From positions 3,602,960 through 3,666,959 of the forward strand of contig NZ_CP024866.1 of the NCBI RefSeq assembly GCF_004136015.1: a stretch of DNA of 64,000 bases. Reading direction: 5' to 3'. Every line of letters starts with the position of its first letter. Positions within the stretch are counted from its first letter, which is position 1. Both the position numbers and the translations under genes were made by a program. The notes under the pieces were generated by a model that saw only the letters and a list, made by a program, of their open reading frames with translations, did no database searches and was not told the origin of the DNA. Of this stretch, positions 7,193 through 8,787 are shown piece after piece. Origin of the DNA: Pseudomonas sp. ACM7. GTDB taxonomy: Bacteria; Pseudomonadota; Gammaproteobacteria; Pseudomonadales; Pseudomonadaceae.

Positions 7193-7292
7193 GTAGGAGC
7201 TGTCGAGTGAAACGAGGCTGCGATCTTTTGATCTTGTTTCTTACAAAGCAAAGTCAAAAGATCGCAGCCTCGTTTCACTCGACAGCTCCTAC
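7193..7292. repeat. Inverted repeat, GTAGGAGCTG family (GTCGAGTGAAACGAGG subtype)
   Basis: Near-perfect palindrome with ~43-nt arms (GTAGGAGCTGTCGAGTGAAA inward to GCGATCTTTTGATC and back). It follows the exonuclease gene and could act as its terminator. Sister copies are at 8229-8327 and 59947-60032, with related ones at 16079, 21716, 24550 and 49369. Confidence 0.92.
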
Positions 7293-7449
7293 AGAAGAAC
7301 CATTTTTCCTTTCACATCCCCCGACGGCACGCGCTCGCGATGCAGGTTTATAGGGTGTTTAACGATGACTTTGATGTGACGATCTCCTACCCAATATTAG
7401 GAATTTGTCCGTCTTGCCCCGTACCTGTGGCATCGATAACCTCTCCAAC

Positions 7450-7485
7450 GTCGCTGCCAATTCAGCGACCGGGTCTGCAAGCCCG
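7450..7485. promoter_or_regulatory. Tandem hairpins upstream of the BRO-N promoter
   Basis: Two adjacent inverted repeats: GTCGCTG/CAGCGAC (7450-7456 with 7463-7469, loop of 6) and CGGG/CCCG (7470-7473 with 7482-7485, loop TCTGCAAG). They lie just 5' of the putative -35, so they are probably outside the main transcript. CGGGTCTGCAAG (7470-7481) is perfectly complementary to 7609-7620 inside the leader. They may be operator sites or part of a conserved mobile upstream module. Confidence 0.6.
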
Positions 7486-7493
7486 CCGACAGT

Positions 7494-7523
7494 TTGTTAT
7501 GAGACCACCGGCGCACCTATAAT
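7494..7523 (+). promoter_or_regulatory. Putative sigma-70 promoter of the BRO-N gene
   Basis: A perfect -10 hexamer TATAAT (7518-7523) lies 18 nt after a weaker -35, TTGTTA (7494-7499). Transcription would begin near 7530 and give a ~155-nt 5' untranslated leader. This is inference from consensus only. Confidence 0.6.
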
Positions 7524-7542
7524 CGCGTCGCTTTAATGAGCG

Positions 7543-7662
7543 ACCATCGATTTATGGTAGCTGTGTGCGGGAGACCTTCGGGTCTGCCGGGGTGGTCTCC
7601 TACTCGGTCTTGCAGACCCGCGCATAGCTGCCACCCATCATCTGCAAGTGATGCTGGCAGCT
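7543..7662 (+). ncRNA. Structured, potentially bistable 5' leader RNA of the BRO-N gene
   Basis: Stem P1 pairs 7555-7571 with 7617-7633 (17 contiguous pairs including three G-U). Inside it are P2, AGACC-TTCG-GGTCT (7572-7585, UUCG tetraloop), and a weaker hairpin around 7587-7607. Downstream, AGCTGCCA (7626-7633) pairs perfectly with TGGCAGCT (7655-7662), enclosing CATCA/TGATG (7636-7640 with 7649-7653, loop TCTGCAAG). P1 and the downstream stem use the same bases 7626-7633 and cannot both form fully. CTTGCAGA (7609-7616) is complementary to the downstream loop TCTGCAAG (7641-7648). The ribosome site AGGAG (7674-7678) lies 11 nt beyond. I do not recognise it as a named riboswitch; function is inferred. 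Confidence 0.6.
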
Positions 7663-7685
7663 CCCACTTTCTCAGGAGATTCGCC

Positions 7686-8075
7686 ATGATCAAAGTTACC
7701 CCCAATCCCCCTGAAGACTCTGCGCAATCAGTTGCGAGCGCAGCTCACTTCATCCCCAAAACATTCATCCGTCACCACATCCAGCTGCGAGCACTGTTAC
7801 TGCATGCTGAGGCGTGGTTCTGCGCCCGCGATATCGGCCGGTTAATGGGCGTGGATATAAACGGCCGGCAAGCCCTCAAGCTCGACGCCGATCAACGTCG
7901 GATGGTGTGTTTGTCCGGAAGCGACGAACCTCAAGAGACATTGATGCTGAGTGAGTCCGGTGTATACGCGATGCTGGTCTATCACTACTGCCCGGAGAAC
8001 CGGAATCTGCGGCGTTGGCTGACCCATCACGTGGTGCCGATGCTGCGGGACAGTGGCGGGGTTGCTTCGAATTAG
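7686..8075 (+). CDS. BRO-N domain (phage antirepressor-like) protein
   Basis: 129 aa. Residues ~30-125 match a BRO-N/antirepressor N-terminal domain: HIQLRALLLHAEAWFCARDI, GRLMGV, LSESGVYAMLVYHYCPENRN and RRWLTHHVVPMLRDSGG, the last being the usual helix of the domain. No second domain (KilA-C, ANT) follows, so it is a stand-alone short form. The start at 7686 has an ideal AGGAG at 7674-7678; the open frame extends 5' only because the leader lacks stops. The first ten residues MIKVTPNPPE are outside the BRO-N fold and resemble, as I recall, the N termini of small DUF6124-type Pseudomonas proteins. No other phage gene is near, so a cellular regulatory or accessory role is likely; DNA binding is inferred from the family. 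Confidence 0.72.
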   Translation: MIKVTPNPPEDSAQSVASAAHFIPKTFIRHHIQLRALLLHAEAWFCARDIGRLMGVDINGRQALKLDADQRRMVCLSGSDEPQETLMLSESGVYAMLVYHYCPENRNLRRWLTHHVVPMLRDSGGVASN

Positions 8076-8228: not shown

Positions 8229-8327
8229 GTAGGAGCTGTCGAGTGAAACGAGGCTGCGATCTTTTGATCTTGTTTTTAAAGAGCAAAATCAAAAGATCGC
8301 AGCCTCGTTTCACTCGACAGCTCCTAC
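8229..8327. repeat. Inverted repeat, GTAGGAGCTG family (GTCGAGTGAAACGAGG subtype)
   Basis: Nearly the same sequence as the element at 7193-7292, so two copies flank the BRO-N leader and gene. It ends only 7 nt from the stop of the convergent AsnC-type gene and probably supplies a terminator hairpin for one or both directions. Confidence 0.92.
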
Positions 8328-8334
8328 GGGATCG

Positions 8335-8787
8335 CTATTTACCATTTCCTTCCAACTGCCCCAACGGCACGCGCTTCTCTATCGCGCTCGACAGCACAAT
8401 CGACGTCTTGCTGAACCCGAACTTGGCGATCCGGTTAATCAACTCTTCCAGCTCCGGCATCGAACCCACCGCCGCCTGCATGATCACGCACGGATCGCCT
8501 GTAACCCGATGGCATTCGGTCAGTTGCGGGATTTTGATCAGGTCGTCGTAGGCCTTCTGATTACCGTGCTGGTTCAAACGCAGTTCGATCACGCACTGGA
8601 TCGGCAAGCCAAGCTTGGCCATGTCGACTTTCGCCTGGTAACCCGTGATGACCCCGCAAGCTTCGAGTTTGGCGACGCGCTCGGCCACGGCCGGAGCGGA
8701 CAGGTTCACTTTGCGCGCCAGGTCGGCGTAGGACGCACGACCGTTTTCCAACAGGGCGCTGAGGAGCATGCGGTCGTATTTGTCCAT
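8335..8787 (-). CDS. Lrp/AsnC family transcriptional regulator
   Basis: 150 aa. The N-terminal winged HTH (MDKYDRMLLSALLENGRASY, then ADLARKVNLSAPAVAERVAKLE with the recognition helix) is followed by a linker and a RAM/AsnC ligand-binding domain (CHRVTGDPCVIMQAAV). The start at 8787 has AGGAG 8 nt upstream. It is divergent from the DMT exporter gene across ~160 nt, a usual arrangement in which the Lrp-type regulator controls its neighbour in response to an amino acid. The effector is unknown. Confidence 0.88.
   Translation of the reverse strand: MDKYDRMLLSALLENGRASYADLARKVNLSAPAVAERVAKLEACGVITGYQAKVDMAKLGLPIQCVIELRLNQHGNQKAYDDLIKIPQLTECHRVTGDPCVIMQAAVGSMPELEELINRIAKFGFSKTSIVLSSAIEKRVPLGQLEGNGK

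Follow-up and report, generated by a model that had tools for sequence, protein, structure and literature searches.

A C4-type antisense RNA locus with mutually exclusive helices upstream of a Bro-N gene on the chromosome of Pseudomonas sp. ACM7

We analysed a 64,000-nt stretch of the Pseudomonas sp. ACM7 chromosome (the window) and found that the leader of a small Bro-N gene within it contains a C4 antisense RNA. The Rfam family RF01695 matched positions 7550–7638 of the forward strand over its full model (1–87 of 87) with 65.9 bits against a cut-off of 45, and was the sole family at gathering level across the whole window. We read the locus, with a probability of roughly 85%, as a C4-type antisense locus, akin to those of phage P1 and Gifsy-1 and residing on a bacterial chromosome, whose own C4 would silence the Bro-N gene with the help of mutually exclusive helices. 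It adds a member to a known class, and the two stems described in it by the initial annotation are real and exclude each other. The features of the locus, all on the forward strand, are as follows.

7437..7489, +: leader resembling c4-a1b1, a hairpin followed by a hairpin with a1 in its loop (RF03163, 39.7 bits, short of the gathering score of 46.7; E 8e-9)
7474..7481, +: a1 site TCTGCAAG, complementary to C4 arm a
7501..7509, +: b1 site GAGACCACC, complementary to C4 arm b
7550..7638, +: C4 antisense RNA (RF01695); mature RNA putatively ~7556–7635, by analogy with the annotated P1 C4
7555..7571, +: stem P1, 5′ strand of the 17-bp stem (pairing and consensus structure)
7572..7585, +: P2 hairpin with UUCG loop, AGACC-TTCG-GGTCT (consensus structure)
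7591..7603, +: arm b, in the loop of P3, whose stem is 7586–7590 with 7604–7608 (consensus structure)
7609..7616, +: arm a, CTTGCAGA, between P3 and the P1 3′ strand (consensus structure)
7617..7633, +: stem P1, 3′ strand, its final 8 bases able to pair with the mimic instead (pairing and covariation)
7641..7648, +: a2 site TCTGCAAG, complementary to arm a
7655..7662, +: mimic of the P1 5′ strand, TGGCAGCT, which forms the second stem (exact complement; covariation)
7674..7681 (about), +: Shine–Dalgarno (SD) and b2 site AGGAGATT, pairing with arm b including G–U
7686..8075, +: antirepressor-like Bro-N gene, 129 aa, start at 7686 (PF02498, 39.8 bits against a cut-off of 25.6; PHROG Ant families)

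The 17-bp stem proposed in the initial annotation consists of 17 contiguous pairs (14 Watson–Crick and three G–U) between 7555–7571 and 7617–7633 and is stem P1 of C4; the internal UUCG hairpin at 7572–7585 is likewise present and is P2. The proposed second stem also holds, AGCTGCCA at 7626–7633 being the exact complement of the mimic, and because 7626–7633 is common to both stems they cannot coexist. Folding of 7530–7690, as had been suggested, gave −65.9 kcal/mol compared with a mean of −53.9 kcal/mol for 200 dinucleotide shuffles (z = −2.99), none of which was as low, and of 1000 mononucleotide shuffles one contained an uninterrupted stem of 17 pairs. The statement that the element belonged to no named riboswitch or Rfam class was wrong, as the RF01695 score lies well over the cut-off.

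Four further pairings accompany the two stems. Arm a is complementary to 7474–7481 and 7641–7648, and arm b to 7501–7509 and the SD region at ~7674–7681, so that both arms have a site upstream of C4 (11 paired bases for a1, 9 for b1) and another downstream, at a2 and at b2 on the SD of the Bro-N gene. This a1-b1-C4-a2-b2/SD-gene layout is that of phage P1, and a dedicated antisense RNA rather than a ligand riboswitch thus most likely controls the Bro-N gene; the earlier proposal that the leader regulates this antirepressor-like gene is very likely correct. We would expect everything from a1-b1 through C4, a2, the mimic and the SD to the Bro-N gene to be carried on a single transcript. C4 would fold into P1, P2 and P3 and presumably be trimmed by RNase P, the only sequence sign for putative processing there being the GGU at 7556, at the 5′ end of P1. 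Binding of a2 by arm a and of the SD (b2) by arm b would then stop translation, as in phage P1, and the a1-b1 leader, as a second pair of sites, may compete for C4, be it as part of the same transcript or as an RNA of its own. The P1 3′ strand may give up its partner in C4 and pair with the mimic, and the sequence that surrounds and follows the mimic may pair with the SD; these exclusive helices would help to set C4 formation and SD openness. A sigma-70-like site lies at 7494–7523, the number of such sites being about that expected by chance, and a second transcript start near 7530 is possible. By analogy, such a start would not be required for the C4 reading, because both annotated c4 promoters of phage P1 lie upstream of a1 and the window resembles RF03163 from 7437 onward.

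The window's genome contains 30 C4 matches, 29 of them over the cut-off, and each C4 is apparently matched to its own gene. When the fit of arms a and b was scored over all four sites, the own locus came first for 29 of the 30 C4s and second for the remaining one (L016); the window locus (L032) ranked its own four sites first of 30. Single target sites were less discriminating, placing the own locus first for 6 to 15 of 30, and energy-based scoring of the raw duplexes placed the own locus first for just 14 of 30. The run-based four-site score was picked after energy scoring had done poorly; used without modification on a fresh set of 40 loci from other genera, it placed the own locus first for 34 and second for six. 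Since some foreign loci reached at least 85% of the own score, we do not claim strict orthogonality. With partners shuffled within genomes, the arms matched a1, b1, a2 and b2 with z-scores of 12.3 to 13.8, compared with 0.0 for arm b against the ORF as a control.

The initial annotation had anticipated compensatory changes in the alternative stems across genomes, and the second pairing does covary across 149 related loci. This set, in which high scorers are over-represented, consists of our own 30 loci, 79 from the best-scoring matches listed for relatives (78 from the genus and one other) and 40 from other genera. A complement of the P1 3′ strand scoring at least 6 was found within 8–38 nt past C4 in 117 of the 149 loci, representing 81 distinct sequence pairings. 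Own partners exceeded shuffled ones globally (z = 12.2), within genomes (z = 5.2; 114 loci, 27 genomes) and within protein families (z = 7.5; 123 loci, 11 families), the corresponding values for the P1 3′ strand against the ORF being 0.1, −0.4 and −0.6; in our own 30 loci alone the excess was modest (z = 2.3, p = 0.015). Covariation with the SD region was seen as well for the segment that starts at the mimic (z = 7.0 globally, 3.6 within genomes and 4.1 within families). The mimic is located outside the RF01695 match, which stops at 7638. It was present in an Acinetobacter locus (AGCTTTGCCA with TGGTAAAGCT), in Gifsy-1 (TCACCACC with GGTGGTGA) and, with one mismatch, in phage P1. As the mimic pairs with the P1 3′ strand and the mimic segment with the SD, three helices have strands in common, namely P1, the P1 3′ strand with the mimic, and the mimic segment with the SD. 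From this recurrence and covariation, exclusive helices look like a property of the C4 class.

Whether these helices amount to a switch bears on the strongest alternative, in which C4 acts purely in trans as in the classical P1 model and the second stem just displays a2 in its loop, without any conformational change. In fold calculations, the own leader opened P1 (fraction <0.5) in 52 of 109 loci, compared with three when the leader was omitted and eight with the leaders of other loci, and the number of mimic pairs rose from 2.2 to 4.8 with the own leader (2.5 with other leaders). For the window, the P1 fraction dropped from 0.84 to ∼0 in the presence of the leader. These effects argue against a purely trans-acting C4, as do the strands that the mimic has in common with both P1 and the SD, both alternatives covarying, and the alternative structures of Gifsy-1, which are visible in native gels and backed by mutations whose effects were partly restored by matching ones (PMC4825925). 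Conversely, a2 does sit in the loop of the second stem, the leader of phage P1 is not predicted to open its C4, and SD unpairedness was not consistently raised by the leader (0.31 versus 0.34 in our own 30 loci; 0.27 versus 0.25 in the other 78). The energy needed to open the ribosome binding site was lower with the leader across the 149 loci (7.29 versus 8.89 kcal/mol, p = 5e-11; >0.5 lower in 92, higher in 28) and came to 8.12 kcal/mol with one foreign leader each (p = 5e-4); the fall was insignificant in our own 30 (p = 0.21), and in the window the energy was not lowered (6.26 versus 5.84 kcal/mol, and 8.76 with another leader). With fold predictions this mixed, a conformational switch as a class property is plausible, and a C4 working in trans only retains a substantial, if less than even, chance.

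We regard it as unlikely that the leader is mainly a cis-acting or IsrK-like activator, its a1-b1 RNA freeing the mRNA by binding the C4 arms while free C4 matters little. The window leader does resemble isrK (RF01394 at 7450–7535, 32.8 bits, below the cut-off of 50), and IsrK of Gifsy-1, a terminated leader RNA, acts in trans to boost translation from its own read-through mRNA by a factor of more than 100 (PMC4825925). However, our own loose scan detected no terminator-like site in the window leader, so that no obvious short leader RNA would arise, and C4 is conserved as a unit with its a2 and b2 sites.

The gene controlled by this antisense arrangement, as we read it, encodes a protein that resembles phage antirepressors, a designation that reflects family resemblance alone (PHROG Ant families); similar proteins occur in 478 phage records, every one below 60% identity. 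Its neighbours encode NYN, exonuclease and AsnC-type domains. The Bro-N frame stays open in the 5′ direction through C4 to an ATG at 7536 (7536–8075); the reported orf45 start of Gifsy-1 (nt 107) likewise falls inside the C4 stretch by our own count (PMC4825925). An in-frame TAG at 8073–8075 ends the gene at 129 aa, earlier than in its relatives. Past this stop the coding resemblance to a 171-aa relative continues, and Bro-N-domain relatives are often 164–182 aa long, as would be expected if a formerly working unit were decaying and its gene dying. The unit of a neighbouring relative (L165), at the same chromosomal place, points the same way, having a C4 and no Bro-N match. Against decay, the Bro-N domain is complete up to the end of its profile, all RNA elements are intact and another relative (P0009) stops at 143 aa, which makes a dying copy improbable. 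A ligand- or temperature-sensing riboswitch, to which the initial annotation had compared the mutually exclusive helices near the ribosome site, can be dismissed almost entirely, as no riboswitch family reached its gathering score in the window, where C4 alone did, and the anatomy is that of an antisense RNA whose variable arms track their own target sites rather than form an invariant pocket.

By comparison with relatives, the C4/Bro-N unit of the window is an accessory insertion at a conserved chromosomal site, being absent from some and present in others next to the asnC-type gene. The matched asnC-type gene was found in 22 of 40 genomes of the genus, and in 13 of the 22 compared stretches the exonuclease gene lies ≤290 bp from asnC, leaving no room for the unit. 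An Rfam scan detected C4 in 5 of 20 relatives' stretches around the asnC-type gene: in L163, L165 and L169 at the window's place and orientation (with a Bro-N match in L163 and L169), in L176 reversed and in L175 farther off. Compared with the window, arm b and the SD region of L165 are altered together (CCTAACGA with TCGTTAGG). Direct repeats in three blocks bracket the window's unit (7193–7335 and 8229–8375) and include a long palindrome (7193–7292 and 8229–8327) as well as a degenerate copy of the terminal part of the AsnC-type gene. As a general mark of mobility of C4 units such repeats were rejected, being clear solely at the window's unit among the 30 loci; less clear ones were present at L021 (26 and 17 bases) and at L015 and L029 (14–17 bases).

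C4 RNAs are best known from phage immunity, and ∼30 C4 units on one chromosome, mostly before genes of unknown function (DUF6124, DUF3077 and unnamed), are unusual. A small ORF follows all 30 matches, its ATG 45–58 nt past C4 in 26 of them; in the other four (L009, L011, L017 and L023) the first frame is broken, coupled or differently started. In L011 and L017 the stop of a short ORF overlaps the ATG of the small gene, resembling a coupled leader ORF, and in L009, a DUF6124 unit, the first frame is broken soon after its start relative to the close copy L027. Small genes of DUF3077 units often start 128–160 nt past C4, behind a short ORF. By Pfam, the 30 downstream ORFs comprise 15 DUF6124, three DUF3077, three Bro-N and nine without a match. 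Genome-wide, 20 DUF6124, five DUF3077 and four Bro-N hits fall at 28 places (one matched by both DUF families), of which 21 are behind a C4 match and seven are not.

Beyond this genome, C4 was detected in 36 of 57 related genomes including our own (32 of 36 within the genus, with up to 42 matches per genome, and 4 of 21 outside it) and in 38 of 245 genomes sampled from the order, where 17 candidates per genome were scored and copy numbers are lower bounds. Under our own ORF rule, a small ORF was present in 144 of the 149 loci, starting 38–66 nt after C4 in 126, and the 144 proteins form 24 single-linkage clusters. Proteins of different domain families behind C4 have a common N-terminal motif like MFKVTPNPP, and in 49 of 144 an NPP or DPP falls among the first 15 residues. 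A terminator-like site upstream of C4 was found by the loose scan in 36 of 109 loci, and the leaders of L011, L015, L017 and L022 contain a terminator-like hairpin with a T-run between b1 and C4, whose 5′ arm, by eye, can pair with bases beside b1 in L011, L017 and L022. The predicted structure of DUF6124 was helical (mean pLDDT 82.5), and a PDB search with it returned nothing at E ≤ 0.001; when the DUF6124 and DUF3077 proteins were compared by profile, as one group, with the unnamed proteins, the resemblance was weak (probability 10%, E 0.003). Ten of the 30 small proteins were tried against NCBIfam and PADLOC for defence systems, which came back empty, and phage or plasmid cargo was rejected as well, the DUF6124 protein of L026 matching 1 of 50,697 phage records (at one record end) and no plasmid record.

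Titles and abstract starts, in a search mostly outside subscription journals, yielded no report of C4 with DUF6124 or DUF3077 genes; DUF6124 itself was not found there and DUF3077 was named in passing in one paper. Both families being nearly absent from the papers searched, C4 as their regulator is a concrete lead, and the wider set of dozens of C4 units, each paired with a small gene, merits follow-up. Many species of the genus might carry dozens of C4 switches, each for one small gene (DUF6124, DUF3077, Bro-N or unnamed), in which the P1 3′ strand would be handed between the C4 stem and the mimic, the mimic segment would grip the SD, and the leader, IsrK-like or within the transcript, would compete for C4. 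Since a single transcript would supply both C4 and its antagonist, two self-sustaining states per unit are conceivable, and such a unit would be an RNA-only memory switch present ∼30 times per cell. This picture is speculative and, taken as a whole, rather doubtful.

Among known systems, the C4 of phages P1 and P7 (RF01695, with targets in RF03163) is like the window's in fold, in the order and spacing of its elements and in the antirepressor-like gene downstream. The phage P1 record annotates the order a1, b1, C4, a2, b2, icd, so that icd is the first gene and ant1 follows, whereas in the window Bro-N comes directly; moreover, the P1/P7 C4 is phage-borne, whereas that of the window is chromosomal and one of 30. 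Both c4 and c4-a1b1 are listed by Weinberg et al. 2010 (PMC2864571). The CI RNA of phage P4, with seqA and seqC, is described as a processed antisense RNA that acts by premature transcription termination and, like the window's C4, has one complementary site on either side (PMC4825925).

The IsrK/STnc1160/anrP region of Gifsy-1 shares with the window the order leader, C4 stretch, a2, mimic, b2 and antirepressor; it differs in its short leader RNA and in the terminator of IsrK (PMC4825925), neither of which we saw in the window leader. We found a C4 (69 bits) 25 nt after isrK, so that, by position in the sequence, IsrK corresponds to the a1-b1 leader, and STnc1160, a stable processed RNA downstream of IsrK (PMC4825925), is most likely the C4 RNA. 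The text of that paper, which calls IsrK unique, mentions neither C4 RNA or C4-like elements nor phage P1; it gives mutational support for leader-C4 pairing in the control of antirepressor translation. The C4 located 25 nt downstream of isrK joins the two lines of research, and the IsrK mutants may thus have probed part of how C4 works. Acinetobacter baumannii AB5075, like the window's genome, has many C4-like RNAs in one genome, namely 21 similar C4-homologous sRNAs, most with signs of processing at GGW (PMC5320573). No proven targets are named for them there, whereas in the window's genome the target would be just downstream of each C4, and one other Acinetobacter genome has a single C4 with a1, b1, a2, b2 and the mimic; we suggest the region 40–60 nt downstream as the place to look for the targets of the AB5075 sRNAs.
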